IMG/VR virus record: IMGVR_UViG_3300024255_000123
Coordinates: 1 to 27,725 of that record
DNA: 27,725 nucleotides
Direction: 5' to 3' (one strand)
Source of the DNA: a virus
Shown: positions 9,190 to 25,423 of the stretch, one piece after another
Numbering within the stretch: position 1 is the stretch's first letter
Layout: each line of letters opens with the position of its first letter
Made by a program: the position numbers and the translations under genes
The notes under the pieces: generated by a model
Database searches by the model: none
Seen by the model: only the letters and a program-made list of their open reading frames with translations
Told to the model about the DNA's origin: nothing

Positions 9190-10509
9190 GTGGGAACCAA
9201 AAAGATTTCGCAATTAGAGGACATTGCAGATGCTGCCTTATCGGGTGAAGCAATTCTGCCTGTCGTAGTATCTGACCCGCTTATTCCTAACAGGAAAGCG
9301 AGGATCAACCAGTTATTCAAAGGTGTGGGTGCGGGGTCTAAATCTGATCCTGGGATTGCCTTTGATTTGGACCGTAATTCTGGAGTGTACCAGAATGCAT
9401 ATGACCAACTTGGTCTATCATGGGGTGCTGGAGGAGTGTATTTCACACGTCTCTTGAACTCTGATGGTAGTACATCAAACTATTTGACTGCACTAGATGA
9501 TTTAGTAGATAACTCCGACCTTGTTCTTGCACCCAAAGGTACTGGATCTGTACGAGTTACAGGTCAGTTTAGGATTGACGATACTGCAATGATTCTTGAG
9601 GATTCTCAAGGTCAAAAAGCACGATTTGAAATTTCTGGTATTGGTAGTGGTACTGCTATCAGAATCTTCAACCTCCCACCAGTTACTGCTGGAAATGGTA
9701 CAGTTCTTGTAGGTGATGACTCTCAGCAAACACTGAGAAACAAAACTATCTTGGTTGATGAAGACAACTTTGTTTTGGTTGATGGTGATGAAGAAGCAGT
9801 ATTCCAGATCAACTGGGATGAAACTGTTGCTGCTAGACGTTCTTACTTCTTACCTGATGCTGGTGCAATTACCACTACAGCAGAAGCAAATGCTAACCAC
9901 TCCACGCTGTTAGATACTAAGACAGAACAAATTGTTCTCAATAAGAATTTTGTTTCAGTCAAGTTCCAACAGACATTTGACTCTGAGTTTAGTGCTAATA
10001 TCAATACATCAGAATTGACTGCTAATCGTATTATTACGATTCCTGATCTGAGTATGACATTATTGGGAAGAGATACAACTCAAACTATTACTAACAAAGT
10101 ATATTCCAATGCTATTTTTGCATCTGGTACAACGATCTCTAAGAAGATCAACTTTGACCTTGACAATCTGCTTGAGAATACAAACGAGACGTATCAGTTC
10201 CCATCTAATGGAATACTAAATAATGCAGGTGGTAATAACATTCTTGTTACCGAAAGAGCAGCACAGGATCTTAGAAACAAAACTCTACTATCTCCCGTTG
10301 TTAGACCTGCATTTGGTGGAGCAGGCGCGGTTATCTTCAACCTAGATAATCTACAGGCAACCAGAACAATCTCGTTCCCTGATGCAGATGCAACTCTGCT
10401 TTCTACAGATAACGTTACGCTAGATGACGTTACCTTCGGTGCTGGTATCGGTGCTGCTACCCTGACGGGTAGAACAAGACAACAACAATTCTTCTACGCT
10501 GGATTCTAA
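9190..10509 (+). CDS. Virion structural / tail fiber protein
   Basis: A 439-residue protein beginning with GTG. No in-frame ATG exists between the upstream in-frame stop and this codon, and no clear Shine-Dalgarno is present. The N-terminus (KKISQLEDIADAALSGEAIL) has the KISxL...LPVV form seen at the base-binding end of many phage fibers. GIAFDLDRNSGVYQ and repeated segments of the type QTLRNKTI, QTITNKVY and QDLRNKTL, followed by beta-rich stretches ending RTISFPDADATLL, are typical of repetitive cyanophage fiber shafts. It is transcribed from the perfect late promoter at 9154 and followed after only six bases by the next structural gene. The exact position in the virion is not visible. Confidence 0.75.
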   Translation: MGTKKISQLEDIADAALSGEAILPVVVSDPLIPNRKARINQLFKGVGAGSKSDPGIAFDLDRNSGVYQNAYDQLGLSWGAGGVYFTRLLNSDGSTSNYLTALDDLVDNSDLVLAPKGTGSVRVTGQFRIDDTAMILEDSQGQKARFEISGIGSGTAIRIFNLPPVTAGNGTVLVGDDSQQTLRNKTILVDEDNFVLVDGDEEAVFQINWDETVAARRSYFLPDAGAITTTAEANANHSTLLDTKTEQIVLNKNFVSVKFQQTFDSEFSANINTSELTANRIITIPDLSMTLLGRDTTQTITNKVYSNAIFASGTTISKKINFDLDNLLENTNETYQFPSNGILNNAGGNNILVTERAAQDLRNKTLLSPVVRPAFGGAGAVIFNLDNLQATRTISFPDADATLLSTDNVTLDDVTFGAGIGAATLTGRTRQQQFFYAGF

Positions 10510-10515
10510 TAAAAA

Positions 10516-11997
10516 ATGGCAACGCAAACAGGAAAACTAGCATCAGCGAAACCAGCTGCAACTACATGGACTGCCCTGTATAGAGCGCCTATCGACTCTT
10601 CTGCGAGTGGCGTTCTAAACATGGTCAGCGACGGTACTGCTGCTAATGTTCGTGTTGGTGTGAAAAAGTATGACATCGCAGCAACGCTGGATGCATCTAC
10701 TTATCTTCTCCACCCTGGAGATGTGATTACAAATAAAACTCTAACATTTGATACTTCAATTCCTATTATTACTGATCAGCAGGATACATTTACTCCTGGT
10801 CAGTTGATAACCACGAATGATGGCGAAACCACATTCAAATGGGAATCGTATTATGTTCCACCCTCAACTGACTTTTATGTAAAGAAGATTGGTATTCTTA
10901 CATATAGTATTGAGAACCAAACTGGTAGTTTCTCCGTTGGTGAAACAGTAACTGGTGGTACTGGAAGTGGTACAGCAGTTATCTATGATATTATTGACGG
11001 TTCTCTCGGTGGTTCTACTCTCTATCTCGGTCCTGTAACTGGAACCACTTTTGTTGAGGGTGAAACTCTAACTGGTGGTACATCTTCTGCAACTGGCGAT
11101 ATCGCTGCTGGTGGTGTTGGTGTTTCCCGTGATGAATTCGTATTCTCTGATAATGGTGCTGGCGGTACTTATAGTCTGCGTAGATCGGCAAGTGTGACAT
11201 TGTTCTTGGATAGAACTTATAAGTTCTTTGTACAAGATGCTTCAATGTCTGGAGTAGGTTTTGCATTATCTACAACCATCAACGGTACATTTGGTATTGA
11301 CCAAACTGCAGGAACATCTGATGATGGAACTGAGTATGTAAGTGGCAAGACAAGTAGCGGCACAGCTGGTGCTAGTGGAGCATATGTTCAGTATGATATG
11401 AGTGCTAATGGTGGTGGCGATGCTACTTACTATTACTTTGACACTGCCGATGGCACCCTAGGTGGTAGTGATCAATCACTGCTATTGTCAGTTGATTATT
11501 CTTATGACACCATCTACATCTATGACCTTCAAGGTACTCTGACTAATGCAAGTGATGCTATTACTTTGGGTCAAACTACATTTACTCTAACCTCTAATGC
11601 AGGATCTAAATGGGGTTATGTTCAGGAAATTTCTGGAACATCAGTAAATATTGTAACTGGTCTTGGATCAGCAGACTTTGCAGGTGCTGACACATTCTAT
11701 GATGTGCCTAAAATTGGTACAGCATCTAGGTCTCTTGCAACAATTAGTAGCATTGATACAGCAGCAAATGCTATTGATTCTGTAGATCAAATCATGCATG
11801 ATAACTCAGTTGATGCTGCAGAAAGACTGACCTCACTGATCATTGGTCCTGGTCAAGTCCTGATGGTATATGCCGCAACGCAAAATATCAGTTTTGACTA
11901 TAGTGGATTCCAAGATAGTTCTTCAGACTTCTCTGTACGATCCTTTGATGTCAATGCTGTTATCGCTGCTGCTGGTGGTGCGTCAGGTGGCGGTTGA
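10516..11997 (+). CDS. Virion structural protein, beta-rich with Gly/Thr repeats
   Basis: A 493-residue protein rich in Gly, Ser, Thr and Asp. Two copies of a short repeat, VGETVTGGTGSGTAV (about 141-155) and EGETLTGGTSSATGD (about 181-195), are visible. The N-terminus (TGKLASAKPAATTWTALYRA) and the C-terminus (LIIGPGQVLMVYAATQNISF, then a Gly-rich end) resemble abundant structural proteins of marine myoviruses. It begins six bases after the previous stop without its own promoter, so it shares the 9154 transcript. The fold is probably a chain of beta-sandwich modules; the precise role (fiber, collar or whisker) is not determinable here. Confidence 0.7.
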   Translation: MATQTGKLASAKPAATTWTALYRAPIDSSASGVLNMVSDGTAANVRVGVKKYDIAATLDASTYLLHPGDVITNKTLTFDTSIPIITDQQDTFTPGQLITTNDGETTFKWESYYVPPSTDFYVKKIGILTYSIENQTGSFSVGETVTGGTGSGTAVIYDIIDGSLGGSTLYLGPVTGTTFVEGETLTGGTSSATGDIAAGGVGVSRDEFVFSDNGAGGTYSLRRSASVTLFLDRTYKFFVQDASMSGVGFALSTTINGTFGIDQTAGTSDDGTEYVSGKTSSGTAGASGAYVQYDMSANGGGDATYYYFDTADGTLGGSDQSLLLSVDYSYDTIYIYDLQGTLTNASDAITLGQTTFTLTSNAGSKWGYVQEISGTSVNIVTGLGSADFAGADTFYDVPKIGTASRSLATISSIDTAANAIDSVDQIMHDNSVDAAERLTSLIIGPGQVLMVYAATQNISFDYSGFQDSSSDFSVRSFDVNAVIAAAGGASGGG

Positions 11998-12005
11998 TCG
12001 TCGCT

Positions 12006-12013
12006 CATAAATA
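12006..12013 (+). promoter_or_regulatory. T4-type late promoter (CATAAATA)
   Basis: CATAAATA lies in the 40-base gap between two structural genes, 24 bases before the ATG at 12038. A purine-rich AAGGAT follows at 12020-12025 as a possible ribosome-binding site. Confidence 0.8.
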
Positions 12014-12037: not shown

Positions 12038-15000
12038 ATGTCACTAACAAGACTCAAGAATATTATCACGTCCCGTACGGGACGTATTATCTACGTCAAC
12101 CCCGATGATTTCGATGCTTCGGATGCGATTGACAACAGAGGCAACTCTTCATTGAGACCTTTCAAGAGTCTGCAGCGTGCATTTCTTGAGGTGGCAAGGT
12201 TCTCGTATCGTGTTGGTCTATCAAACGACGAATTTGACGCATTTTCGATCTATCTCTATCCTTCTGAGTATGTCGTTGACAACAGACCTGGCGATGTTCT
12301 TTATACTAATGTAGCGCCACTTGACGCTAACTCTAACTTTGATGTTACCTCACCTAATAATGTACTGTATAAGTACAATTCTATTGAGGGTGGTATTATT
12401 GTTCCTAGAGGTTGTTCCATTGTTGGTTCTGACCTCCGTCGTACTAAGATTATTCCTAAGTACATTCCTTATCCTACTATCTACGCTGCAAAAAATATCA
12501 ATACTGAGGACCAAGTTCCTTCTCCTGTAAATATTTTTAGCGTAACTGGTGGTTGCTATTTCTGGCAGTTCTCATTCTTCGATGGTGATGACACTGGTGT
12601 ATATTTTAGACCAGACTCTACTGAAACTATTCCTCCATCGTATTCACACCATAAAGTAACAGCATTTGGTTTTGCTGATGGTGTAAACACTCTTTCCAAG
12701 TTGATTGAAGACGGCAGAGTTCCTAACAGTGATTACTCTGCTGTTGCTAATATCCTTGACAGAACTGACCTCGATATCTACTATCAGAAAGTATCGAAAG
12801 CATTTGCTACAATTCCTGATACTTCTGGAGATCCTGATACTGACCAGATTCAGGCAAGGGTTGAGGAAAACAGGATCGTTGGTCCTATTTCTGACGAATA
12901 TCGTATTTCGCAAATTACTCGTAACGGTCAAACTGCTACAGCGGTTACTGTTGATGAGTTTGGTAACCCACGAAACCATGGTTTCTCTGTTGGTGTGAAC
13001 GTCAACATCAGTGGTGTTACATCATCTACTGGTACATCTGGTGAAGTGGATGCATCATTGTATAATGGTTCGTTCCAAGTTACATCTGCATCAGGTAATG
13101 TCTTTACTTACCAGATGATTCAGGAACCAACTGGTACTGCAATTGGTTCAAACATTGTTGTCAAAGTTGAGATTGATACAGTTGACTCTGCATCACCATA
13201 CATGTTCAACCTATCCTTGAGATCGGTTTGGGGCATGAATGGAATGCACGCTGATGGTTCCAAAGCAACTGGTTTCAAATCAATGGTTGTGGCTCAATTC
13301 ACGGGATTGAGTCTTCAAAAAGATGATAGAGCATTCGTACGATATGATGAATCTACAGGTAACTATCTTGCAGCAACATCTGGAGATGGTGCTCACTTAG
13401 ATGGTTTCGCACGTTATAGAAAAGGATGGGAACACACCCATGTTATGTGTTCTAACGACTCGTTTATTCAGGTCGTTTCTGTGTTTGCTGTGGGTTATGC
13501 TGACCACTTTGCTGGTTTCCGTGGCGCTGACATGTCGATCACGAACTCAAACTCAAACTTTGGATCGACAGCTCTTAGATCTAAAGGTTTCAAACTAAAA
13601 TCATTCACTAAAGATAAGTCTGGACAACTTACACATATTGTTCCACCTAAGTCTCTTGCAGACGTGGACGAAGTATCAGTCAACTGGGTAAACATTGACA
13701 TCACTCGTACTAGACAAGTGAATGGACAGTTGAATAACATTGGTCAGACTGCTGGTAGTAGATTATATCTTTATGGTTATACTGCATCAGATTCTACTCC
13801 TCCAACTCGCATTCAAGGTTATGCAGTAGGTGCTAGACAAGATGGTACTGGTGCTTCAGCAGTTGCAGATAAAGTAAAATGTCTCTTGTTTGCTGATAAC
13901 AGTGCAACCACTGCATCAGTAAGAAGTGCAGCAATTTCACCATTCGGTCCTACTGTTTCTACTTCTGTTGCTGGTGAAGCAGGATCCCCATTCCAATATG
14001 ATGAAGGCACTTATGGTGGTGCATTTGGTCAAACTGGTACTGATGCTAACGGTAACCCAATCTACAATCCTGCTGGTTGGTATATTTCTACAAGTCCAAC
14101 TGATAACCAGATCTATGCTTCTATCCAGACGGGTAGAACTAAGTACGATAGTGTAAACTTCACACCAACTACGTTCATCTCTCGTGTTCCTGACGCAAGA
14201 AACCTGGTTGACAGAACTTATCGTGTACGAATGGTGATCCCACAAGATCAGCAGTTGCCATTGCCACGTTCACCTATCTCAGGTTTTGTTCTACAACCAC
14301 TGAATACAGATACTACTAGATACGAACTTACTCAGACATTCTATCTTTATGATATTGAAACTGTTACTAAGTTTGTTAGAGGTGAGAGCGATGGTGTTTA
14401 CTATCTGACACTGCTTTGGGCATCTGTTATTCCTGGTGAAGCAGGATCTCCTGTTGGTAACTATGATGATAAGAGATTCTCTCAGAACGTCAATGAGGTA
14501 TATCCATCGTTTGACAGAGACAACCCTGTAGCAGATCCTTCTGCAGCAGTATCTGTTGCCGATAAGAGAATTATCGGTTTGGTATATTCTACCAACGGTG
14601 CTACACCTGCTATCAATAACAAAGATCCTCAGCGTTCTATCACTAAAGAATCGGTTCTGAAACTGGTTGCTGATAGTGGTTGGTCACAACCTGGTACTAC
14701 GCCTAACTGGGATGCAGCAAACATTCAGTTGTCTGGTATTCCACTGACTGCACGCTTAGGTGATGCTGAAACTCGTAAGATTCCTATTCGTGTTGATGGC
14801 GAAGGCAACCTTGCACCAATTCCTGTAGAACTGAGAAGACACTCTATTCTACGTTCTGGTAACCACACCTTTGAATATACTGGTTTCGGTCCTGGTAACT
14901 ATTCTACAGCATTCCCACAGACACAGGTTGAGACACTTACTGATGATCAGATCAAGTTCTCTCAGTCAATCAAGGAAGATGCAGGTGTTGCATTCTACTC

Positions 15001-15853
15001 AGGTCTAAACTCTAACGGTGACCTATTCATTGGTAACCAGGTTATCAACCCAGTTACTGGTCAGATCACTAACGAAGATATTGCACAGTTGAATGTTGTT
15101 GGTGAAGAGAACACAACCATTCAAACGTTCTCTGAGTTGGTGCTGACTGATAAACTAACTGTTATCGGTGGTGGTTCCAACGCACTGGAATCAGTATTCT
15201 CTGGTCCAGTCACATTCCAGAATACTTTGTCATCTACGGGTAATATACTTGCACGTAAACTGACATACAACAACCAGGATGGTACAATCCTGAAGCAGAC
15301 GCTGTTAGCACCAAAAGATTCTAATGGTTTACCTGACTTCTCGGCATTTACTGCTGGAACATATGATACACCTGATGATGGTGATATCATTTATAATGAA
15401 AACTGGGAACTTGGCGATTCACTTGGTTGGATTCGTTGGCAGCAAAACTGGTATGAGTTTGGACTAACTAATACTGGTGCAATCGATCTGACTGCTGGTG
15501 GTAACGTTGGTCTCGGCAGAACTGCAGCATCTAACGATGCTAATAACAGACTTGAGGTGCAGGGTAACACCTACATCGATGGTGATCTTACTGTTACTGG
15601 CCGCGGCGCAGTTTCTCCTGCTAAGTATATTACCAGATCTACAGTTCTAACGGTAGCACAGAGTACATTTGCAATTACTGGTTATAGCAGTCTTACTCAT
15701 ACTGCAAGTTCAGTGCTTGTGTACATCAATGGTGTTGCACAAATTGGTGGTGTCAACTTCAACGTTGATAGTAATGGCACCAACGTTGTGTTTGATACAG
15801 GCACAATTCCACAGGCAGGTGATACAGTTCACATTATTGAGCTGCCTATCTAA
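12038..15853 (+). CDS. Large virion structural protein with N-terminal beta-helix-like domain (1271 aa)
   Basis: The largest protein in the window. The N-terminus (GRIIYVNPDDFDASDAIDNR, then SSLRPFKSLQRAFLEVA and IYLYPSEYVVDN) has the pattern 'YVN...D...G.S..PFK(S/T)(I/L)Q.A' that opens right-handed beta-helix domains in phage fibers and tailspikes. The middle is long and beta-rich without catalytic motifs I can name. Near the C-terminus a GNTYIDGDLTVTG shaft motif precedes a terminal module (SSVLVYINGVAQIGGVNFNV, ending AGDTVHIIEL) typical of phage fiber tips. It has its own late promoter, and its TAA is part of the next one (15850). A scaffold or proximal fiber that carries the smaller adhesins encoded downstream is a reasonable inference. 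Confidence 0.75.
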   Translation: MSLTRLKNIITSRTGRIIYVNPDDFDASDAIDNRGNSSLRPFKSLQRAFLEVARFSYRVGLSNDEFDAFSIYLYPSEYVVDNRPGDVLYTNVAPLDANSNFDVTSPNNVLYKYNSIEGGIIVPRGCSIVGSDLRRTKIIPKYIPYPTIYAAKNINTEDQVPSPVNIFSVTGGCYFWQFSFFDGDDTGVYFRPDSTETIPPSYSHHKVTAFGFADGVNTLSKLIEDGRVPNSDYSAVANILDRTDLDIYYQKVSKAFATIPDTSGDPDTDQIQARVEENRIVGPISDEYRISQITRNGQTATAVTVDEFGNPRNHGFSVGVNVNISGVTSSTGTSGEVDASLYNGSFQVTSASGNVFTYQMIQEPTGTAIGSNIVVKVEIDTVDSASPYMFNLSLRSVWGMNGMHADGSKATGFKSMVVAQFTGLSLQKDDRAFVRYDESTGNYLAATSGDGAHLDGFARYRKGWEHTHVMCSNDSFIQVVSVFAVGYADHFAGFRGADMSITNSNSNFGSTALRSKGFKLKSFTKDKSGQLTHIVPPKSLADVDEVSVNWVNIDITRTRQVNGQLNNIGQTAGSRLYLYGYTASDSTPPTRIQGYAVGARQDGTGASAVADKVKCLLFADNSATTASVRSAAISPFGPTVSTSVAGEAGSPFQYDEGTYGGAFGQTGTDANGNPIYNPAGWYISTSPTDNQIYASIQTGRTKYDSVNFTPTTFISRVPDARNLVDRTYRVRMVIPQDQQLPLPRSPISGFVLQPLNTDTTRYELTQTFYLYDIETVTKFVRGESDGVYYLTLLWASVIPGEAGSPVGNYDDKRFSQNVNEVYPSFDRDNPVADPSAAVSVADKRIIGLVYSTNGATPAINNKDPQRSITKESVLKLVADSGWSQPGTTPNWDAANIQLSGIPLTARLGDAETRKIPIRVDGEGNLAPIPVELRRHSILRSGNHTFEYTGFGPGNYSTAFPQTQVETLTDDQIKFSQSIKEDAGVAFYSGLNSNGDLFIGNQVINPVTGQITNEDIAQLNVVGEENTTIQTFSELVLTDKLTVIGGGSNALESVFSGPVTFQNTLSSTGNILARKLTYNNQDGTILKQTLLAPKDSNGLPDFSAFTAGTYDTPDDGDIIYNENWELGDSLGWIRWQQNWYEFGLTNTGAIDLTAGGNVGLGRTAASNDANNRLEVQGNTYIDGDLTVTGRGAVSPAKYITRSTVLTVAQSTFAITGYSSLTHTASSVLVYINGVAQIGGVNFNVDSNGTNVVFDTGTIPQAGDTVHIIELPI

Positions 15854-15880: not shown

Positions 15881-16315
15881 ATGGCACTTACTCAAATCAA
15901 TGGCAATAATATATCTCAGGCAACTGATGCCACGATTTCTGCCTTACGGTTCCTGAACACTAATGGTGACGCAATTCTGACGTTACCTATTGGAACTTCG
16001 GCGCAAAGACCAGGATCACCTGACGATGGTACTTTGCGTTTCAATACTACAGAACTCGGGGCAGAGATTTATAGAGAAACTGCACCTGGATCTGGTGCTA
16101 GGGGTTGGTTCCCTCTTGCTGGTGGTGGTCCTTCCATTGGTGAGAAAAGTGTTATCAGAACTAATGCTGCTACAATTGATGAAAACTTGACTGTTGGAAC
16201 GACAGGTACTAATAATGGACCTGAATTTGCCAATGGTTTGAGTGCAGGACCAATTACAATTTCACAAGGTTTCACAGTTACGGTTCAGTCAGGAGCAGCG
16301 TGGAGCGTTAGATAA
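15881..16315 (+). CDS. Short tail fiber/adhesin-family protein
   Basis: A 144-residue member of the five-gene family. It carries the shared module LTLPIGTSAQRPGSPDDGTL RFNT followed by EIYRET...GWFPL (about residues 32-85). The rest is a short beta region ending FTVTVQSGAAWSVR, resembling the short C-terminal trimerising ends of phage fibers. It lacks the large receptor-type domain of its neighbours, so it may be a connector. Its stop overlaps the next start (TAATG). Confidence 0.72.
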   Translation: MALTQINGNNISQATDATISALRFLNTNGDAILTLPIGTSAQRPGSPDDGTLRFNTTELGAEIYRETAPGSGARGWFPLAGGGPSIGEKSVIRTNAATIDENLTVGTTGTNNGPEFANGLSAGPITISQGFTVTVQSGAAWSVR

Positions 16316-17241
16316 TGGGTCGCCTAAATGTAACAAACATAGCGGGACTAGATACTTCTGCAACAGTTGAAGGTGTAACTATACCTCAGTTCAATGTGCA
16401 TGTGAATGATCCATTACGTGTTGATGGAACATTACAAATGGAATCTGGAGCGAAGACTCTAAGTATTCCTAACGCACCTGTAAATCAAAGACCAGTCAAA
16501 GGTAAAAGAGTTGGTTCTTTATTTTATAATGAAACTGATAACAGAGTTGAAGCATGGGATGGCACTAATTGGGTAGCATCTGGAACTGGTGCTACTTCTG
16601 CAACAACATTAGGACTTCCCTCTAATCCTGCTCCTAGCGGACAGCATCTAAATTATGCTGGATTTGAGACGGGATATTACTATATTCAACCTAATAACGA
16701 AAGTTTAGCATACAGAATGTATGTTGACAATCGTAGATATGCTGGTGGTTGGACTTGTGCTGTTGTTGTTAGAAGAGAAGATTGTCAATCTCATGTAACT
16801 AACGGTCAGTACGGTACATTTACCAGAACTGATGGTTATCTGCAGGGTCCAATCTATGATGCTCAGGTTACTATCAAGATGGCAGATACTTTTATTCAAA
16901 ACCTGAGGAATAGTAGTCTATATAGAGGGCAGACACCATATTGGTTAGAGTCTGGTCATTGGACTAGTAACTATGGTCCTATCAATCAGTTCTTTCCATT
17001 TGCTATGACTATTGATCTACTCAGTAGTGCAAGTGGTCAAAATGCTCGTACAAACATTGCCTTGCAATATGAAGGACAATTCAATGATAGAAACCCAAAC
17101 ACGGGTACTCGCGGTATGGGAGATCACCATACAGGTGGGACTACTTATTTCGCTTACGGCAGGCATCCTGAGCAAGGGAACCAATGTGGATTCAGACAGG
17201 ATAGTTTAGGTGAAGCAAACGGATGGTTCTGGGTAAAATAA
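16315..17241 (+). CDS. Tail fiber adhesin with degenerate fibrinogen-like C-terminal domain
   Basis: A 308-residue protein. The N-terminal peptide RLNVTNIAGL is nearly the same as that of the 19489 gene. The shared module follows (LSIPNAPVNQRP, then GSLFYNETDNRVEAWDGTNW, residues 49-86). From about residue 103 the pattern SNPAPSG, ETGYYYIQP, AYRMYVDN and AGGWTCAV parallels the fibrinogen-like start of the 18385 protein (NPAPS, DGVYWIDP, QVYCDM, GGGW), but without the Cys of VYCDM. The C-terminal 150 residues are unlike known enzymes and probably form the receptor-binding face. It starts on TAATG, and only one base separates it from the next fiber gene. The fold assignment is inference from motif spacing. 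Confidence 0.72.
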   Translation: MGRLNVTNIAGLDTSATVEGVTIPQFNVHVNDPLRVDGTLQMESGAKTLSIPNAPVNQRPVKGKRVGSLFYNETDNRVEAWDGTNWVASGTGATSATTLGLPSNPAPSGQHLNYAGFETGYYYIQPNNESLAYRMYVDNRRYAGGWTCAVVVRREDCQSHVTNGQYGTFTRTDGYLQGPIYDAQVTIKMADTFIQNLRNSSLYRGQTPYWLESGHWTSNYGPINQFFPFAMTIDLLSSASGQNARTNIALQYEGQFNDRNPNTGTRGMGDHHTGGTTYFAYGRHPEQGNQCGFRQDSLGEANGWFWVK

Positions 17242-17242
17242 C

Positions 17243-18385
17243 ATGAGTAAGTTATACGTTGGAGATATAGCAGGTCCTATTCTTGGTGTTGTAAGAACTC
17301 AAGCAGGAACCACCATGAAGATCAACATTGAGTTAGATGCTCAATGTGGTAATGGTGCCCTAAAACTTCCTGCTATTACTAATAGTCAGAGACCTTCTAG
17401 TCCTGTTGCAGGTCAGTTATGTTATAATACTGAACAAAACAGGGCTGAGATATACAATGGTGCCACTTGGGTTGCTGTTAGTGTATCGACTGAACTTTCT
17501 GCTGGTATGACAGCAACTGGTGGCAACTTTACATATGACTATGATGGTTGGCGCATTCATACATTTACTAGCAACGGTACATTCAACGTTACTGCCGCAG
17601 GATATGCTGAGGTATTGATGGTTGGTGGCGGCGGAGGCGGCGGAGGTCGCTCTGGCGCTGGTGGAGGAGGCGGTGGTCTCGTTTATTATGGTGCCGAACA
17701 ACCTAGAATTGGTACAGAAAAGCATTTTCCTACTACTGGTAATCACACTGTTACTGTAGGAATTATTGGTGGTGGTGGAGCTGGTACTGGCGTCCCTGGT
17801 AATAATGGTGGTAACACTACTATCAGTGGTCCTGGATCATTTGTAAATATCACTGCTATTGGCGGTGGTGGAGGCGGTGCTGACGGGCAGAACAACGGGT
17901 CTAACGGTGGATCTGGTGGCGGTGGTAGATATGATGCAAACGGTGGTACTGGACAGCAATCTGGATCTGCTACAGGTGGTTTTGGCACTAATGGTGGATA
18001 TGGTACATCGAACACCTGGAATGCAGGTGGAGGCGGCGGTGCTTTGATGCCTGGTAACAGAGGTTGGGGACCATCTACTGGTGGTAACAACTCCGTCTCT
18101 GGTGAATGTGGTGATGGTGGTATTGGTCTTCAGTATAAAATTTCTGGTGCTAATAAGTATTATGCAGGAGGCGGTGGTGGAGGATCACACGACCCCGCTC
18201 ATACTGGAGGTTTTGGTGGTCCTGGTGGCGGGGGAAATGGCGGTGCTCCTGGAGGAAACAACGGGGGTATAGGTGGTGTCGATAACACTGGCGGTGGTGG
18301 TGGAGGAGGTTCAACCAACTCTGGCAACGGTGGCGGTGGCGGCGCAGGCGGTACTGGTGTAGTAATTATCAGGTATAGAATCTAA
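17243..18385 (+). CDS. Tail fiber adhesin with glycine-rich (polyglycine) domain
   Basis: A 380-residue protein. Residues 1-80 hold the shared N-terminal peptide (SKLYVGDIAG) and module (LKLPAITNSQRPSSPVAGQL, then CYNTEQNRAEIYNGATWV). A linker with WRIHTFTSNGTFNVTAAG (about 103-120) leads into a domain that is mostly Gly runs from residue 127 to the end, closing with TGVVIIRYRI. This 'sGtF.v..aG..v..l.vGgGGgG ... G.viirY' layout is a known glycine-rich domain class in phages and bacteria. In T-even type phages such as Salmonella phage S16, glycine runs form a polyglycine-II helix bundle that presents host-binding loops, so the variable segments between the Gly runs here are candidate receptor loops. 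It shares TAATG with the next gene. Confidence 0.78.
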   Translation: MSKLYVGDIAGPILGVVRTQAGTTMKINIELDAQCGNGALKLPAITNSQRPSSPVAGQLCYNTEQNRAEIYNGATWVAVSVSTELSAGMTATGGNFTYDYDGWRIHTFTSNGTFNVTAAGYAEVLMVGGGGGGGGRSGAGGGGGGLVYYGAEQPRIGTEKHFPTTGNHTVTVGIIGGGGAGTGVPGNNGGNTTISGPGSFVNITAIGGGGGGADGQNNGSNGGSGGGGRYDANGGTGQQSGSATGGFGTNGGYGTSNTWNAGGGGGALMPGNRGWGPSTGGNNSVSGECGDGGIGLQYKISGANKYYAGGGGGGSHDPAHTGGFGGPGGGGNGGAPGGNNGGIGGVDNTGGGGGGGSTNSGNGGGGGAGGTGVVIIRYRI

Positions 18386-19461
18386 TGAGTACAGTAAAAA
18401 CAGCGAGTATTGAAGGAACATCTGATAACGATTTTGTCGTTGTCGTACCTAGTGATGGCAACCTAATTATTGGTGGTGGACTAGAGTTTGGTGGTGATGC
18501 AACTTTATCAATTCCTGTAGGTACTACTGCACAAAGACCTACTGGTCAGGCATTACAAACAGGCATGATTAGATTCAATACTGATGTAGGATTTATTGAG
18601 GTCTATACAGGTGCTAACTGGATCAATTTTGGAGAGACTACAGCATCAGGTAGTTATGTAGATTTAGGAACACAGGCAAATCCTGCCCCATCTGCACTTG
18701 CTATCAAGAAACAGTATCCTAATGCACCTGATGGTGTCTATTGGATTGATCCATCTGGAACTGGTGGTGGTGCCTTTGGTCCTACTCAAGTATATTGTGA
18801 CATGACTACCGATGGTGGTGGTTGGATGATGGTCGCATATGCAGGTAATATCAACACCAACAAAACAAACACTGTTGGCAGTAACTATCTACCATTATTC
18901 AATACATATGGTACGTTATCTTCTACTGCAAAAACTAATAGAACTGCGTTTTCACGCATGGACTTTGCAAAAGCAATTGAAGGTGCAAGTGATACGAGTC
19001 AGATGATGGCACGCCGTACTGAATGTCAGAGTAAAATCTTTATTTGGGAAGTAACTGAACTGAATAGATTTGACACGACGGCGAATGTAAACTGGACATT
19101 TCCTGCCAACAATATTGGTACTGTTATTCGTAAATGCAGAATGAGCAATAAAGGACCTATGGGTCTGGTCTCTAGGGATTACATTGCAGGTGAAGCAGAT
19201 CGCGTACGTTATGAAAACGGACCATCATATCCTGGTATTGCATGGAACTCTAGTTTCAATGCTAATAATGATAACAGTGGTAATTTTGAGCAATTCTTAG
19301 TACGTCGCTCTATTTTGTACTGGGAGACAGGCGAGAGTAGTTATCAGGCAAACCAGTGGTTCCACGCTGATCCAATGCATTTAGCAGCATCTCGTGGTCC
19401 TGATAATGCAGTACAGGATATGGAGTTCTATTTCCGAGAGGAAGAACCTGGATTCTCATAA
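18385..19461 (+). CDS. Tail fiber adhesin with fibrinogen/intelectin-like lectin domain
   Basis: A 358-residue protein. The shared fiber module is at residues 40-82 (LSIPVGTTAQRP, then GMIRFNTDVGFIEVYTGANW). From about residue 97 comes a clear fibrinogen-related start: NPAPS, then PDGVYWIDPSGTGGGAFGP, QVYCDMTTDGGGWMMVAYAG. The C-terminus (ADPMHLAASRGPDN, then MEFYFRE) is more like intelectins, whose fold ends in a comparable FYFR-type strand, than like vertebrate fibrinogen. Such domains bind sugars or acetyl groups on surfaces, so this is probably the most direct glycan-binding tip of the set. It is the last gene of the operon, and its TAA forms part of the next late promoter. Domain recognition is good for the first 60 residues and moderate for the remainder. 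Confidence 0.8.
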   Translation: MSTVKTASIEGTSDNDFVVVVPSDGNLIIGGGLEFGGDATLSIPVGTTAQRPTGQALQTGMIRFNTDVGFIEVYTGANWINFGETTASGSYVDLGTQANPAPSALAIKKQYPNAPDGVYWIDPSGTGGGAFGPTQVYCDMTTDGGGWMMVAYAGNINTNKTNTVGSNYLPLFNTYGTLSSTAKTNRTAFSRMDFAKAIEGASDTSQMMARRTECQSKIFIWEVTELNRFDTTANVNWTFPANNIGTVIRKCRMSNKGPMGLVSRDYIAGEADRVRYENGPSYPGIAWNSSFNANNDNSGNFEQFLVRRSILYWETGESSYQANQWFHADPMHLAASRGPDNAVQDMEFYFREEEPGFS

Positions 19462-19464
19462 ATA
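19457..19464 (+). promoter_or_regulatory. T4-type late promoter (CATAAATA)
   Basis: CATAAATA contains the TAA stop (19459-19461) of the fibrinogen-like adhesin and lies 24 bases upstream of the ATG at 19489. AGAAGAGG at 19470-19477 may assist translation. Confidence 0.8.
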
Positions 19465-19488
19465 AACAAGAAGAGGTAACTATACGAA

Positions 19489-20982
19489 ATGTCTAGACTA
19501 AATGTTGATAGAATCTCAGGTCTAACTGCTGGAACGGGTGCTCCCGAACTAGAGATTGACAGTAGTGGTCGTTTCAATTTCGATAGCGGTACTCTGTATA
19601 TTGACTCGGTGAATAATCGAGTGGGTGTTGGTACTCAGACTCCAAGCGTGTCTATGGACATGGGTGGTGCTACTGATGGCATGGTTCTCCCTAAGGGCAC
19701 AGACGCTCAGAGACCTGGATCACCTGCAACAGGTATGCTGAGGTATAACACTACGTCAGGCAAGGTTGAGGTCTACGACGCATCCAACACCTGGGCAGAT
19801 GTGGGTGGTGGCATTCCTGAGATGAATGATGACACTTCAGGATCAGTCCTACGTTGTCGTCGTGCTAATGGTAATGCATATGACGATGATACTACTAGAA
19901 ATAATGATACTTACGAAGCATATTGGACACACGATCTAGACGCAAACTATAGACTAGAAAACCTCACACAGTGGCCCTTCAGATTTATTATCAACCGTGG
20001 ATATACTATCGGTGGATATAAGAACGCTGCTCCTTATCGTAATGGTAACCGTACTACTCACTCTGCTGACGTTACACTGTCACTAGGTGATGTTATTGAT
20101 AGATCTGCTGCATACATTGGCGGATCAGCAAACGGTATCAACCTCTTTGTTTACAACTGTGCTAACTCTTGGTTGCCTGCTGTTGCAAACACCTGTTCAT
20201 ATTCAATGATTACGGAAACAAACCGTGGTCAGAATAGCAACTGGAATACACTGAGAAACAGATCTTACTCTGGTGCATGGACTGATTTCCTTGGCAACCA
20301 ATGGTATACAAACAACGGTAGAAACAGAGCATATATTACTTCAGGTAATGGTAACACTGATCGTCACGATCTCAATACTGAGGTGATGCTAAGCGATATT
20401 AGTGGATCTATCAACCGTGTTGCACACGCTGAAGGTGAGTATTACTCCTGGGTGTCTACAGGTCACTACAGATTTGAATTCTCTAGTGAATCATATACTG
20501 CCTGGTCTAACTATGCACCAGCACCTAACAGTGGTGGTCTGAATAAGCACCTTAGGACTAGAATTGGTTTCTTCTATTGCTCTGAGGGTACAAACAGAAA
20601 CAGAGCGATCACGAAGCGTCGTGACTCTGATGCTGTCATTCTACGTTCTGGTATTACAAAACCAGAAGCTGGTGGTGAAGAGAACCAGCACACTGGCATG
20701 AACAAAGGTTACTGCATCTCTAACTATAACGGAGCACAGAACAATAACTCTTGGATCTATTACTATTACGTTGATACTATTCTCTTCGCTGACTCAACTA
20801 TCACATACAGAAAAGGTATTCCTGGATCATCCTCTGGTGTAGGACGTGAGGCAGGAGACATGATTGGTGCTGGTATTGTTCCACGTTCCTACATGACTTA
20901 CACAGGTTCTGGTTATCAGGCAATCGGCGGTGAACCACTTGCTGATGGCACTGGTGCATATGGTGGTTTCGGTTCTTACTAA
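19489..20982 (+). CDS. Tail fiber/adhesin protein with large unrecognised C-terminal domain
   Basis: A 497-residue protein. The N-terminal SRLNVDRISGL peptide is followed by a shaft motif (DSVNNRVGVGTQTPSVSMDM) and the shared module (MVLPKGTDAQRPGSPATGML, then RYNTTSGKVEVYDASNTW). The remaining ~380 residues are Asn/Tyr/Arg rich. They contain a run RGYTIGGYKNAAPYRNGNRT followed by SLGDVIDRSAAYIGGS, which hints at Kelch-like or beta-propeller blades, and a Gly/Tyr C-terminus. It has its own late promoter. It is the largest member of the adhesin family, and the C-terminal domain is probably receptor binding. I do not recognise that domain with certainty. Confidence 0.74.
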   Translation: MSRLNVDRISGLTAGTGAPELEIDSSGRFNFDSGTLYIDSVNNRVGVGTQTPSVSMDMGGATDGMVLPKGTDAQRPGSPATGMLRYNTTSGKVEVYDASNTWADVGGGIPEMNDDTSGSVLRCRRANGNAYDDDTTRNNDTYEAYWTHDLDANYRLENLTQWPFRFIINRGYTIGGYKNAAPYRNGNRTTHSADVTLSLGDVIDRSAAYIGGSANGINLFVYNCANSWLPAVANTCSYSMITETNRGQNSNWNTLRNRSYSGAWTDFLGNQWYTNNGRNRAYITSGNGNTDRHDLNTEVMLSDISGSINRVAHAEGEYYSWVSTGHYRFEFSSESYTAWSNYAPAPNSGGLNKHLRTRIGFFYCSEGTNRNRAITKRRDSDAVILRSGITKPEAGGEENQHTGMNKGYCISNYNGAQNNNSWIYYYYVDTILFADSTITYRKGIPGSSSGVGREAGDMIGAGIVPRSYMTYTGSGYQAIGGEPLADGTGAYGGFGSY

Positions 20983-20994
20983 TAGGAAATAACA

Positions 20995-21903
20995 ATGCGT
21001 ACATACTATCTCGCAAAAGCAGGCAAATGGATGAACTCGATGCCAGATGAGTTCGTCAACTATTATTCTGTCCTAGATTGGATCTCATTTTCTGTTGCGA
21101 CATCGAATAAGACTATCTTTGAAGATACTTATAATATGACTAATCCTCAGAATAGATTCTATATTCTGAATGAAATGATAGCAAGTAAAGGATTTAGATC
21201 CTTTGCTGAGGTTAGAGATAATATCAAAGTAATCAGAACGGATCTTGAAGGTGGTGAGATCATTGATAACACTGCTGCTGGTGGTGTTGATACTGATGAA
21301 GACAACGTGAGTTCTGTAACTAACTCTTGGGAACCTACGTCATTTGCATTTGATCCACAACTAAAATTCCTTACTGTTAGTCAACCAACTCAAAATCCTG
21401 GTGAGAAGGTCACACTTCCCTTTGATCAGCAACGAAAGGATGCAACTGTTCTGGCAATGAAAGCAGTCGCTAAGGCAGTTATTGAAGAAGAAATGGATAA
21501 GCGTCTTGCAAAACTTGATCTGAATAATACGTTAGAACAAGTAACATTTGAGTATCAATGGGAAGAAGCACAAGCATGGGCAGCAGATAATACTGCTGAT
21601 GTACCCATCTTGACAGCACTTGCTACTGCTAGGGGCTTGACAGTTGAGGATATTGTTGCTAAAGTCAACACTGCAAGGGTCAATCACAGGACTAGAGTAA
21701 CTACTCTGCTTCAGAAGATGGCACAAGTAAAGCAGGCATACAAAAACTGCGCTACAATCAAAGAGATGAACATTTTCTATGAAGACTATTTCAACATTGA
21801 AATGCCACAAACACAAGCAGTTGAGACTGGCAGACTTGTCATCGATGAAGAAACTGGTAAAGAGACCCGCACTAAGGAGTTAGGAATCGGTTTCGCTTTC
21901 TGA
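20995..21903 (+). CDS. Virion/assembly protein with tail-fiber-chaperone-like segment
   Basis: A 302-residue protein preceded by a good ribosome-binding site (AGGAAA just before the ATG). Residues ~186-245 (EYQWEEAQAWAADNTADVPI, then LTALATARGLTVEDIVAKVN) follow the 'eA.a.lad..a.tPlLdaLaaarGl....l..kV' pattern found in DUF4376-like or tail-fiber-assembly chaperone proteins. The N-terminal part (MRTYYLAKAGKWMNSMPDEF, then VNYYSVLDW) is unfamiliar. Its place immediately after five fiber genes fits a chaperone for their trimerisation, as in T4 gp38/gp57A-type systems. The family match is modest, and it could instead be a structural protein. Confidence 0.6.
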   Translation: MRTYYLAKAGKWMNSMPDEFVNYYSVLDWISFSVATSNKTIFEDTYNMTNPQNRFYILNEMIASKGFRSFAEVRDNIKVIRTDLEGGEIIDNTAAGGVDTDEDNVSSVTNSWEPTSFAFDPQLKFLTVSQPTQNPGEKVTLPFDQQRKDATVLAMKAVAKAVIEEEMDKRLAKLDLNNTLEQVTFEYQWEEAQAWAADNTADVPILTALATARGLTVEDIVAKVNTARVNHRTRVTTLLQKMAQVKQAYKNCATIKEMNIFYEDYFNIEMPQTQAVETGRLVIDEETGKETRTKELGIGFAF

Positions 21904-21930: not shown

Positions 21931-22689
21931 ATGTCATTATCCGCTGATCAGATTATTGACTATTCTGTGAAATATGCAAGCGGTCAAACAAAGTATCAAA
22001 ATGAAACTTTTGTTGGTAAGTCGCATGTCACAAAATATCGTCAAGTAAGACAAGCATTGCTTGAACTTGAGAACAGAACCCATTCACTGAAGAAAATTGA
22101 ATTTGAAATTGAACGCGAGAAAGTTCATCAGAAGTATATCGAGAGGCGTCTTGAAGAGTGCGGAGATGACTATGAGCGTGAGTTGCTACAGATCGATCAC
22201 AAAGATAAGGTCATCGATATTGAGATCGCAGAGCGTAAGTATAAGCGCCAGGTAAAAGAATCTGATCATTTTGTCAAGATGGTCCAAGATGCATGTGAGA
22301 CAGAAGAAGATCTTCTGCGCTATTGGAATGATGATGAGGAAGAAGAGAAGAAATATTGGATCGCTCGTATGGGCAAACAGGCAGCACTTGACATGATGTC
22401 ATTCGGTCGTATTAGTGTTGGTAATTTAGATTCTATCTCGATGATGCCTGAGGAGGATCAACTAAAAGCATTGTCAATTGGTTTCCAATACAGTAACTTG
22501 TTAGGTTCACAGTTACAGAAGATTGAAAGAGCATTGAAACCTGCTGCTAACGAATTGCTGCGTGATCCTAATAACTTTACACTTCCTAGTTGGGAAGGTA
22601 TTGAGGACACAATGAATATTCCTCTCCATGATATGATCACTGGTGGTAGTGATGCTATCACTAACATGTTGCAAGGATCTGAGGACTGA
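21931..22689 (+). CDS. Coiled-coil protein of unknown function
   Basis: A 252-residue, highly charged protein. Residues ~40-125 (LLELENRTHSLKKIEFEIER, then VHQKYIERRLEECG and further Lys/Glu heptads) predict a long coiled coil, followed by an acidic patch (WNDDEEEEKKYW). The C-terminal third is more globular. Similar coiled-coil proteins lie near the fiber region of marine T4-like phages and have no assigned function. An assembly or bridging role is plausible given fibers upstream and oxygenases downstream. Its stop overlaps the first oxygenase start (TGATG). No enzyme motif is visible. Confidence 0.7.
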   Translation: MSLSADQIIDYSVKYASGQTKYQNETFVGKSHVTKYRQVRQALLELENRTHSLKKIEFEIEREKVHQKYIERRLEECGDDYERELLQIDHKDKVIDIEIAERKYKRQVKESDHFVKMVQDACETEEDLLRYWNDDEEEEKKYWIARMGKQAALDMMSFGRISVGNLDSISMMPEEDQLKALSIGFQYSNLLGSQLQKIERALKPAANELLRDPNNFTLPSWEGIEDTMNIPLHDMITGGSDAITNMLQGSED

Positions 22690-23360
22690 TGTCATACTTT
22701 AGTTATGATGGTCCATCCGCTCCGATGGATTCATTTGTGCATGAAATTTTTTCTGTGCCATTGTTTGAATTTACATGTGCTGTTGAGGAACAGCGTGATA
22801 TTGTAAAAGAACTGCAAAAACCTTTACAGAATCAACATTTTACACCACAAGGTGAAGAGCAAGATGCATTTTCATCTCGTGATACACTACATGAAGAACC
22901 ACTATTCAAGAATTTTGGTATCAAAGTAGTTAGCGCACTCAATAATGTATGGGACAAGTGTGGTTATATGGATATCGAACCATATATCACATCGATGTGG
23001 GGCAACTCATTGAATACTGGTGGTTCTCTTCATCCTCATGCACATAGTAATTCATTTTTCTCTGGAGTATGGTATCCTAATGATGTAGAGATTGATGACA
23101 TGGGTGGTGGATGTGTAAAGTTCATCGATCCATTATCATCTCGATATCAAATTATGCCAAGGATTAGGAAAACTAACAAGTTCAACTCAGGCGAAATTAT
23201 TATTCGTCCTAAGAAGAGTATGCTACTAATTTTTCCTTCTTGGTTGGAACATTGTACAGTTCCATCAACGTTAGATAAACCAAGATATAGTATCTCATTC
23301 AATATTTGGATGACAGGTAAACTTGGACATGACTTCGCCCTAAATCGATTAGAATTTTGA
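22689..23360 (+). CDS. 2OG-Fe(II) oxygenase-like protein 1
   Basis: A 223-residue protein of the phage 2-oxoglutarate/Fe(II) oxygenase-like group (TIGR02466 type). Metal site: HPHAHSNSFFSGVWY gives His115/117/119. The distal site is IFPSWLEHCTVPSTLDKPRY, with His188, and Arg199 to bind 2-oxoglutarate before SISFN. These enzymes hydroxylate proteins, nucleic acids or small molecules; here the substrate is unknown. It is the first of four consecutive related genes and overlaps the coiled-coil gene by one base. All expected metal and cosubstrate residues are present, so it is probably active. Confidence 0.8.
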   Translation: MSYFSYDGPSAPMDSFVHEIFSVPLFEFTCAVEEQRDIVKELQKPLQNQHFTPQGEEQDAFSSRDTLHEEPLFKNFGIKVVSALNNVWDKCGYMDIEPYITSMWGNSLNTGGSLHPHAHSNSFFSGVWYPNDVEIDDMGGGCVKFIDPLSSRYQIMPRIRKTNKFNSGEIIIRPKKSMLLIFPSWLEHCTVPSTLDKPRYSISFNIWMTGKLGHDFALNRLEF

Positions 23361-23361
23361 C

Positions 23362-24042
23362 ATGGAACAAATAAGCAGTAATGTGATTGAGGTATTCCCT
23401 CAAGCGATTGGCGTTTATCGTATGCCTCAGAATGGCATTGATGATGTAAAAGAAAAATCTTTTGGAGTAATAGATCAGTATGCTGCTGATACTAATGTCT
23501 CTAGGATGAATGGTAATAGTATTGATCTACAACATTTTTTCAATACTGGTGGTCAATGCCTTCTCGATGAACCTGGGTGGGATAAGTTTCATTCATGGAT
23601 CAAAGAATGTACGTTAGACTATATTACTAACACACTAGGATATAAGTGTGAGTCTGTTGTTGTCACTGATTGTTGGTTGAACAAGTGTGATTATGCTGGG
23701 TATCAGTTCATGCACTGCCACAGTAATTCATTCATCAGTGGTACATATTATGTCAACTTTGAGACTGGTAAGCATCCACATCTAGGATTTCAGTTCCCTG
23801 GTGGTGTCCCTGGTGCCATGCACAAACCATACTTAGAACTGACAGAATCTAAGCAGACTAAGTATAATTCTACTGGTGCTATTCTTCCTAATCGAGAAGG
23901 TGATCTGATGTTGTGGCAATCTAATCTACTGCATGGATATGAGAATAGTCATGCAGACAATCGTGTAAGTATCTCATTCAATGTTCTTCCTGAGGTACTC
24001 GATTGTAGAGGTACATATTCATTCAAGGTGGTAAAGCAATGA
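23362..24042 (+). CDS. 2OG-Fe(II) oxygenase-like protein 2
   Basis: A 226-residue relative of the gene just upstream, with MHCHSNSFISGTYYV (His118/His120) and LMLWQSNLLHGYENSHADNR (His191, Arg201), then VSISFN. Overall sequence outside these motifs differs strongly, so it is an old paralogue and not a recent copy. It starts one base after the previous gene and overlaps the next by ATGA, which makes joint expression almost certain. Substrate unknown. Confidence 0.8.
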   Translation: MEQISSNVIEVFPQAIGVYRMPQNGIDDVKEKSFGVIDQYAADTNVSRMNGNSIDLQHFFNTGGQCLLDEPGWDKFHSWIKECTLDYITNTLGYKCESVVVTDCWLNKCDYAGYQFMHCHSNSFISGTYYVNFETGKHPHLGFQFPGGVPGAMHKPYLELTESKQTKYNSTGAILPNREGDLMLWQSNLLHGYENSHADNRVSISFNVLPEVLDCRGTYSFKVVKQ

Positions 24043-24755
24043 GTTTCAATTATATTGACGAAGAGAAATTTCTCAAAGCAGTACAGATAAATCCTGATAC
24101 TGAATTATCTACAGTACAGATTGATGGTATGAACTCCTTCAAGATGTATAGAAACTTCCTAAAGAATCCTGAACTGTATGTTGAGGTAATGGAACAGTTT
24201 CCTGTAATCTCAACACAATGGAAACGTACAGGAGGATTTGCACCTGGTTGGCGTCAAGAAATCCCACCATATGCTGCGGCAACTATTGTTGATCGCATTC
24301 GTAAGGATGTAGACTTTGCACCAGTTCGTGTGTTTACTAATGTATTCACAGGCGATATGCCTATGATTGAGAACTCTGAGCAACCACATGCTGACGTGTT
24401 CGTTGACCCTGAAGGTCAGTTGAATGTTATCAACTTCGTATTCAATCTTTGGATGTGTGAGGGTATTGGTGGCACTGCATTCTGGAAGTGGAGAGATAAG
24501 AAGTATGTCACTGAATTGAACAGGGAAGAGTATGAAGAACTATTCCCCGAAACCAATACTAATACTACCGTTCCATGGAAATGTTTCCGTGGTAATGAGG
24601 ATTGGAAACTTGACACTGTTGCACCTATTGAATACAATAGTTGTCTAGTATATGATGGAGGATTCTTTCATTCTGCATTCGTTCCTGAGTTATCATTTTT
24701 GGATGAACATAGATATTCATTAGTTGGCATGGGAATCCGTAATCAAAATGAGTAA
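24039..24755 (+). CDS. 2OG-Fe(II) oxygenase-like protein 3 (HxD type)
   Basis: A 238-residue protein with the classic HxD...H...R pattern: QPHADVF (His117, Asp119), GGFFHSAF (His211) and EHRYSLVG (Arg225). The mid-section NVINFVFNLWMCEGIGGTAF fits the jelly-roll strands of this fold, and the protein resembles the DUF6445-type group found in marine phages and bacteria. It is not closely similar to the two oxygenase-like genes before it. ATGA overlap upstream and an 8-base overlap downstream place it in the same unit. The fold and metal site are well supported; the substrate is unknown. Confidence 0.75.
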   Translation: MSFNYIDEEKFLKAVQINPDTELSTVQIDGMNSFKMYRNFLKNPELYVEVMEQFPVISTQWKRTGGFAPGWRQEIPPYAAATIVDRIRKDVDFAPVRVFTNVFTGDMPMIENSEQPHADVFVDPEGQLNVINFVFNLWMCEGIGGTAFWKWRDKKYVTELNREEYEELFPETNTNTTVPWKCFRGNEDWKLDTVAPIEYNSCLVYDGGFFHSAFVPELSFLDEHRYSLVGMGIRNQNE

Positions 24756-25395
24756 TATCACACTATTTGAGCAACCTAATCCAGCAAGAACGCCAGTAGC
24801 GATTCAGTTTAGTGCTAAGGCATGGCATGGTAAATGTATTAGTCCTCAAGAATCCTTGCAGTTAGCACAATTAGTGCTATCAAGGGAAGGAGATCTAATC
24901 AAAGAGCATATGGATCACACTGATGATGGTGGTACTGGTCTTGGTGAGTTTTCTCTTGCTGCTAAGTTCAGAGCATATAATATGTTTGCATGGGAAGATG
25001 AGACATGTAAGCATATCAAGAACGTGATAAAGCATTGTGTCAAGGACATGTATCCTGACTATGATGAACCTCTCTATGGAAGAATGTGGGGTACTATTCT
25101 AAGACGTGGGCAGTCAATCAAACCACACCATCATAATTTTGATGAGTATAGTTTTCTCTCTGCTAGTATCATCTTACAAAGTGAGACTACATCCACATTT
25201 TATCAGAATCCATTTGGTAACAATGCTATCAGTTATAAGGATGAAGCAGGAACACTAACTCTGTTTCCAGAGTATCTTACTTACTGGACAGATCAACATA
25301 AAAACTCAGTCGTACCAAGGATTGCATTAGGTGTTGACATTCTAACTGAGTGTGCTTTAGATGACAATCATAGACAAATGCTAGTAGGTATATAA
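24748..25395 (+). CDS. 2OG-Fe(II) oxygenase-like protein 4, possibly altered metal site
   Basis: A 215-residue protein when read from ATG 24748 (MSNITLFEQ). An upstream in-frame TTG at 24724 would add eight residues but lies deeper in the previous gene. KPHHHNFDEYSFLSASIILQ (His127, His129) corresponds to the HxH...SG strand of oxygenase-like protein 1. In LFPEYLTYWTDQHKNSVVPR the position of the distal His is a Tyr (Tyr179), with a His five residues later and Arg191 conserved. It may bind metal differently or be inactive. It is the last of the quartet and is followed by an AACTATATAA motif and gnd. Confidence 0.68.
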   Translation: MSNITLFEQPNPARTPVAIQFSAKAWHGKCISPQESLQLAQLVLSREGDLIKEHMDHTDDGGTGLGEFSLAAKFRAYNMFAWEDETCKHIKNVIKHCVKDMYPDYDEPLYGRMWGTILRRGQSIKPHHHNFDEYSFLSASIILQSETTSTFYQNPFGNNAISYKDEAGTLTLFPEYLTYWTDQHKNSVVPRIALGVDILTECALDDNHRQMLVGI

Positions 25396-25404
25396 ACTAT
25401 ATAA
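25395..25404 (+). promoter_or_regulatory. AACTATATAA motif, possible promoter, copy 2
   Basis: Identical to the 10-mer at 21903-21912 and again beginning on the last base of a stop codon, 19 bases before the gnd ATG. Candidate promoter of gnd and the small genes behind it; no -35 seen. Confidence 0.4.
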
Positions 25405-25423
25405 AGCGTCTAAAGAATCATCT

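Follow-up and report, generated by a model that had tools for sequence, protein, structure and literature searches.

Phage receptor-binding proteins are well known to join a near-constant N-terminus to unrelated C-terminal domains and to shuffle the latter (PMC10684548). In the tailspike protein (TSP) cluster TSP1-TSP4 of the Ackermannviridae (CBA120 and other Kuttervirus phages), consecutive receptor-binding protein genes give one particle several specificities, the N-terminus sets the position of each protein, and modules are swapped at a short conserved border (PMC8432352, PMC8825819). Here we analyse a locus of five consecutive genes (A to E) for candidate adhesins in a 27.7-kb viral record (IMG/VR record IMGVR_UViG_3300024255_000123, 27,725 nucleotides, taken in full length and called the window below). 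Compared with S-ShM2 and S-RIM14, two phages of Synechococcus, the window has 91.6% DNA identity over 99% of the stretch and, judged by this sequence, comes from a T4-like cyanophage (Kyanoviridae) close to these two. Cyanomyoviruses are abundant ocean viruses. They have no recognisable homologues of the T4 tail-fibre genes g12, g34, g35 and g37 (PMC2984593).

We read the locus, with a probability of roughly 0.7, as a rack of five paralogous adhesins in which leaders are specific to their slot and tips can be exchanged. Each protein is tripartite, with a position-specific leader of ~40 residues, a common stem core of ~38 residues and a C-terminal tip. Across related loci tips have been exchanged at the border between core and tip, moved between slots or left out, and they are mostly of carbohydrate-binding fold types. 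The leaders may each dock at a separate place on the distal tail, on a fibre or on the baseplate; surface glycans of Synechococcus or Prochlorococcus may be what the tips bind. We infer that A to E bind receptors and that all five are present in one particle, which would then show several binding specificities simultaneously. An exchange of tips could thus alter host range without disturbing assembly.

Position-specific leaders and a common core

A to E share a core of ~38 residues (LP..TAQRP..G.lRyNT...EvY.G..W). In blastp comparisons of the five N-termini all pairs except A-B match (E 4e-10 to 4e-4), most strongly B/D and A/E (E ~4e-10), C/E (~3e-7) and A/C and D/E (~1e-6), and more weakly A/D (~2e-6), B/C (~4e-6) and B/E and C/D (~1e-4). 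A hidden Markov model (HMM) was built from the core and iterated over the window and 21 related phage loci; it detects about 80 copies, those of A to E at E 3e-14 to 1e-18. Together these matches show that the N-terminal similarity is not due to chance. An earlier note on this DNA, made from the letters alone, had seen five genes with a shared N-terminal module and interpreted them as one common docking module with interchangeable receptor-binding tips; the observation is confirmed, with significant similarity of the module in the profile comparison that it had proposed, and the interpretation is partly supported. B, C, D and E do start with the peptides it quoted, and A begins MALTQINGNNISQ.

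To compare the locus with its relatives, about 200 loci from named cyanophages and IMG/VR contigs were collected, and N-terminal parts (N-parts) and tips were clustered separately. For the assignment to slots we used 22 five-member arrays, dereplicated at 85%, and profiles built from the arrays other than the one being placed. These held-out profiles put 108 of the 110 N-modules into the correct slot. The leader alone (the residues before the core) was sufficient for 107 correct assignments, and the 38-residue core alone gave 93. Slot identity is thus carried by the ~40 residues that precede the core, and in place of one common docking module there are five slot-specific N-termini. The N-type is nearly always the same in slot 1, a single one in slot 4 and mostly one in slot 5; slot 3 has one and, in the clade of the window, a second, and slot 2 holds a group of types. 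The leaders keep a fixed order across genera. With the clade of the window excluded, A, C, D and E still score best in slots 1, 3, 4 and 5 (75.5, 69.0, 81.5 and 123.1 bits).

The core is found in other settings as well: it sits beyond residue 130 in 24 proteins, and 20 proteins carry at least two copies. Since it occurs in tandem and deep inside other proteins, the core reads as a generic piece of stem and the leader as the part that may dock. In ACG-2014a (L016:7420-14188) seven consecutive module proteins are encoded, the last three of which have two tandem cores.

Tip exchange, empty slots and virion evidence

The tips of B and D are lectin-like in fold. The D tip matches Pfam COLFI (29.5, cut-off 26.2) and intelectin-1 (E 2e-8), in agreement with the fibrinogen/intelectin-like domain proposed for it. 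The B tip matches serum lectin/intelectin in sequence (E 1e-4), and its AlphaFold model aligns with fibrinogen-like domains over residues 104-308 (Z 9.4, root-mean-square deviation 4.0, 171 residues); this model of the 308-residue protein is confident only in parts (mean predicted local distance difference test score, pLDDT, 66.5, with values under 60 in much of the leader). B in its fold and D in its sequence thus resemble intelectins, ficolins and fibrinogen-related proteins, the match in sequence being confined to the first part of the domain. The B tip had been taken for a degenerate domain; it belongs instead to a well-conserved family that occurs in three different slots and has the conserved motif DHHT..GTYFA.GRHPE. 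A C-terminal profile of 21 tips of this type (T4) matched no PDB chain, intelectins included, at E<10, and we therefore make no claim about a glycan site.

The C tip is a polyglycine domain, as predicted (Pfam Gly_rich_2, 70.6 bits, cut-off 24.3). The large domain of E had been described as being without known family, and indeed it has no Pfam match; an AlphaFold model of the 497-residue protein with 22 homologues reached a pLDDT of 32, from which no fold is claimed. Searched by profile against the PDB, the slot-1 and slot-5 families gave matches at chance level only. The C-terminus of A, described as a short trimeriser, would be a putative one: its ~55 residues can be aligned with a part common to the long tail-fibre families phrog_5342 and phrog_745. 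Among the tips of relatives, Laminin_G_3 (above cut-off) and F5/8C (weak) were recognised, and by profile comparison many tips fall into two superfamilies, one fibrinogen-like and one polyglycine. Neither A to E nor the tips of the relatives had a Pfam match to a beta-helix or a hydrolase; B and D are fibrinogen-like and C is polyglycine. Domains of the recognised types are frequent in proteins that bind carbohydrates or receptors.

Across the sample, slot 4 carries ten types of tips (T2, T4, T5, T8, T13, T14, T16, T26, T36 and T44), slot 3 seven (T3, T4, T6, T10, T17, T27 and T40) or none, and slot 2 three or none. The same tip type can stand in several slots: T4, the type of B, is found in slots 2, 3 and 4 of P-RSM4, S-MS29 and contig L057, and T13 in slots 2 and 4. 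Identity among the T4 tips of slots 2, 3 and 4 amounts to 60-80%, with little or no similarity between the N-parts; within one genome the means across slots are 69% for the T4 tips and 35% for the N-parts. In 127 protein pairs tips of at least 45% identity follow N-parts without detectable similarity, and conversely N-parts of up to 63% identity are followed by tips that lack detectable blastp similarity. Recent homogenisation of the T4 tips inside a genome was considered and rejected, since same-slot tips of other genomes are closer (0.75 versus 0.69).

An expansion of the gene family with fast divergence of an ancestral fibrinogen-like tip, and no recombination, would account for the remote relationship that profile comparison finds among the fibrinogen-like types T3, T4, T6, T8, T10, T14, T16, T26 and T40. 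It is already contradicted by little-changed T4 tips behind three different leaders and by polyglycine and laminin-G tips behind the same leaders as fibrinogen-like ones. In addition, the E tip (residues 109-497) is found with 64-70% identity on unrelated stems of ~300 residues (L129-L134, L136), and a comparison of S-RIM12, in which slot 2 is empty, with S-RIM2, in which it is filled, reveals a sharp insertion at the module end. Here the DNA is co-linear (71%) as far as the module end, beyond it S-RIM2 has an additional ~1.4 kb with the tip, a small open reading frame and a 2-oxoglutarate (2OG)-Fe(II) oxygenase, and homology restarts at slot 3. Divergence by itself is thus highly improbable, and exchange of tips is the reading that we follow below.

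The exchange is seen between species and genera. In 26 records (S-RIM12 and near relatives) the whole array is kept at 95-100% identity, and hypervariability of the array among isolates was rejected as an idea, since the S-RIM12 isolates share a single layout, which the listed isolates of S-RIM2 all match to an equal degree. At the level of isolates the locus is therefore not the hot spot for domain swapping proposed in the earlier note, and homologues do not all have fixed C-terminal domains, since tips are exchanged across related loci.

Two further tip arrangements were seen. A 635-residue slot-4 protein (L055:10828-12735) has a double tip, a polyglycine domain followed by a T17 domain, and the latter stands alone in the neighbouring slot-3 gene. 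The slot-1 protein of type T7 has a C-terminal extension of ~170 residues, giving 305-314 residues versus ~140 elsewhere, and is present in Syn9, S-RIM50, S-RIM8, ACG-2014b and ACG-2014g (slot 1 of L003, L005, L014, L015 and L203).

Several slots are occupied by proteins that consist of leader and core only. We found 38 distinct proteins of this kind with 76-124 residues (among others L002:7900-8169, L010:10776-11045, L017:7814-8074 and L202:12100-12575), and their median ratio of nonsynonymous to synonymous substitution rates (dN/dS), 0.28-0.37 depending on the type, shows that they are kept by purifying selection and are not debris. Such tipless proteins could be spacers in an ordered stack, in which the array proteins bind one another in sequence and each leader recognises its neighbour. 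Purifying selection on them and the strictly conserved order would fit this arrangement, as would the TSP complex of the Ackermannviridae, which assembles by mutual binding (PMC8825819, PMC8432352). Arrays with one to four members exist, however (Syn9, P-SSM3, S-RIM50), showing that neighbours are not strictly needed, and we regard a stack as rather unlikely.

In purified particles of S-SZBM1 liquid chromatography-mass spectrometry detected proteins 54, 53, 52 and 51 (PMC9146016). By locus, lengths and blastp, proteins 54, 53 and 52 are the orthologues of the window proteins encoded at 9190, 10516 and 12038, and S-SZBM1_51 is the slot-1 orthologue, with 47% identity to A over 142 residues (blastp, E 1e-32). 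The true receptor-binding protein could be the conserved long fibre upstream, with the array supplying decoration or accessory glycan-binding proteins for loose, reversible attachment. In keeping with this, the 1271-residue fibre is better conserved and gave 16 peptides in the S-SZBM1 virions versus one for the slot-1 protein, and in the Syn9 array only slot 1 was found. Tip exchange, kept module borders and a neighbourhood of tail-fibre genes are instead typical for host-range determinants (PMC10684548), and a purely accessory role seems doubtful to us.

Our preferred reading, slot-specific adhesins with exchangeable tips, has to face several points that weigh against it. Detection in virions concerns slot 1 alone, by a single peptide and in another genus; in S-SZBM1 a profile search of seven genes around the fibre did not recognise slots 2-5, and a published virion detection of these slots was not found. 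The interchangeability claimed in the earlier note applies to slots 2-4, which vary freely, and slots 1 and 5 are nearly fixed, slot 1 with T0 (or T7, which has the same beginning) and the commonest slot-5 N-type with T1. B becomes ambiguous without its close relatives, with 40.8 bits for the slot-4 profile, 37.0 for slot 3 and 33.8 for slot 2. Finally, some tip types are remote relatives of each other, so that part of the variation is divergence and not exchange.

Transcription and neighbouring genes

The five reading frames contain no internal stop (Table 1). A/B and C/D overlap by one base, B and C are one base apart and a gap of 27 bases separates D from E; with this tight spacing A to D look like one unit. 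The late-promoter core of cyanophages is ATAAATA (PMC2984593), and this motif is located 29-35 bases before four genes, those starting at 3859, 9190, 12038 and 19489. In the whole window it is not above chance (5 versus 6.3 expected), only its placement being notable. With this placement, late transcription would cover the array in two parts: slots 1-4 together with the long fibre, and slot 5 together with the genes that follow it.

Table 1. Features of the candidate adhesin array and its surroundings (positions in the window)
Feature	Position	Strand	Remarks
Slot 1, protein A, 144 aa	15881..16315	+	leader; core 15977-16081; short C-terminus, tip type T0
Slot 2, protein B, 308 aa	16315..17241	+	leader; core 16459-16575; tip T4, residues ~95-308, fibrinogen/intelectin-like
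Slot 3, protein C, 380 aa	17243..18385	+	leader; core 17360-17473; polyglycine tip T11, residues 109-379
Slot 4, protein D, 358 aa	18385..19461	+	leader; core 18505-18624; tip T8, residues ~85-358, fibrinogen/intelectin-like
Slot 5, protein E, 497 aa	19489..20982	+	leader; core 19681-19794; large tip T1, residues 109-497, no known fold
Virion structural protein, 439 aa, T4-GC 344	9190..10509	+	orthologue present in S-SZBM1 virions
Tail-fibre protein, 493 aa, T4-GC 345	10516..11997	+	orthologue present in S-SZBM1 virions
Putative late-promoter core ATAAATA, T4-type	12007..12013	+	31 bases 5' of fibre start; would serve fibre and slots 1-4
Conserved long tail-fibre protein, 1271 aa, T4-GC 346	12038..15853	+	immediately 5' of array
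Putative late-promoter core ATAAATA, T4-type	19458..19464	+	31 bases 5' of slot 5; would serve slot 5 separately
302-aa protein, phrog_10301	20995..21903	+	adjoins slot-5 tip in distant contigs; possible partner or chaperone
252-aa protein, phrog_1409, T4-GC 353	21931..22689	+	adjoins slot-5 tip in distant contigs
2OG-Fe(II) oxygenase, phrog_81	22689..23360	+	belongs to co-linear block after slot-5 tip
2OG-Fe(II) oxygenase, phrog_81	23362..24042	+	homologues come after slot-5 and D-type tips elsewhere
238-aa protein, phrog_1644 'minor coat protein'	24039..24755	+	end gene of co-linear block

The genes downstream of slot 5 are found together with its tip elsewhere. In L134 and L129 an E-type tip is followed, in the same order, by homologues of the 302-residue and 252-residue proteins, the 2OG-Fe(II) oxygenases and the 238-residue protein; in L129 two halogenase-like genes are interposed, both longer than the phrog_2928 protein of the window. 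The presence of the E tip on other stems with the same downstream genes places the E junction at the border between module and tip and shows that these genes go with the tip. The D tip, too, was seen on other stems (L025-L028), and there again a 2OG-Fe(II) oxygenase comes next.

Genes for 2OG-Fe(II) oxygenases were repeatedly seen beside adhesin tips (window 22689-25395, L006:8866-9447, L134:9251-10647, L025:3941-4609). Of the 141 2OG-type genes counted in 18 cyanophage genomes, 39 are located at most 10 kb after the array, and from the fibre start to 15 kb past the array there are 46, versus 19 expected if they were evenly spread; as the 18 genomes are related, this count overstates independence. 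Further clusters of 2OG-type genes are located elsewhere. The link between oxygenases and tips is a lead only. A bolder version, in which the tail has a fixed set of addressed sockets, tipless proteins are selected as socket plugs after the loss of a tip and tips arrive as cassettes with an oxygenase that hydroxylates them, strikes us as unlikely; if true, the many unexplained oxygenases of cyanophages would gain a role in adhesin maturation.

Three further observations concern the surroundings of the array. A tail protein (phrog_350) at 1250-3040 of the window has an Arg/Lys-rich C-terminal tail of ~110 residues, and a tryptophan-halogenase-like protein of 359 residues (8079-9158, phrog_2928) is encoded immediately 5' of the tail-fibre genes. 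In S-ShM2 the gene petE (plastocyanin) separates the last 2OG-Fe(II) oxygenase from gnd; at this place the window has only a gap of 28 bases (25395-25424). A search of the record for portal families gave no match, and the controls were likewise without a match.

Relation to known adhesin systems

Direct orthologues of the array are T4-GC 347-351 of S-ShM2, P-SSM4, Syn19 and others; S-ShM2 has the same five genes (T4-GC 347, 349, 1101, 349 and 351). They are annotated as hypothetical or 'sericin 1 precursor-like'. Nowhere in the open-access literature searched did we find them described as an array whose leaders are slot-specific and whose tips can be exchanged; Sullivan et al. 2010 mention only virion proteins with similar distributions (PMC3037559). 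Within that literature the five-slot order across genera, the slot identity in the leader and the maintained tipless members thus appear to be new. The locus offers ordered host-range candidates with mapped exchange borders and predicts which 'hypothetical' genes of cyanophages should be read as candidate host-range genes. Exchange of tips may help related viruses to change which cells they stick to.

The gp38 protein of T-even and S16-like phages is a polyglycine adhesin that is added to gp37 as a separate protein. C is also glycine-rich and adhesin-like, a likeness of composition, but its domain is covalently attached behind the stem module. From the general mosaicism of receptor-binding proteins the locus differs in that the arrangement is found in parallel in up to five consecutive genes.

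The nearest known system is the tailspike cluster TSP1-4 of the Ackermannviridae. Like this cluster, the array has consecutive genes, position-specific N-termini (see the slot assignment above) and tips that have moved between slots, and its proteins probably bind receptors. Unlike the cluster, it has five slots and not up to four, ~80 residues of leader and core in place of large XD domains, and often tipless members; profile searches with A1, A3, A4 and A5 gave no PDB chain with XD1/XD2 (T4 gp10-like) anchor domains, the leaders being only ~40 residues long. Its tips are of fibrinogen/intelectin, polyglycine, laminin-G and F5/8C type and not beta-helix hydrolases, and for lack of the latter we do not file it as a member of the Ackermannviridae type. 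By this comparison the two systems would work alike, with the position of each protein set at its N-terminus and the specificity carried by an exchangeable tip.

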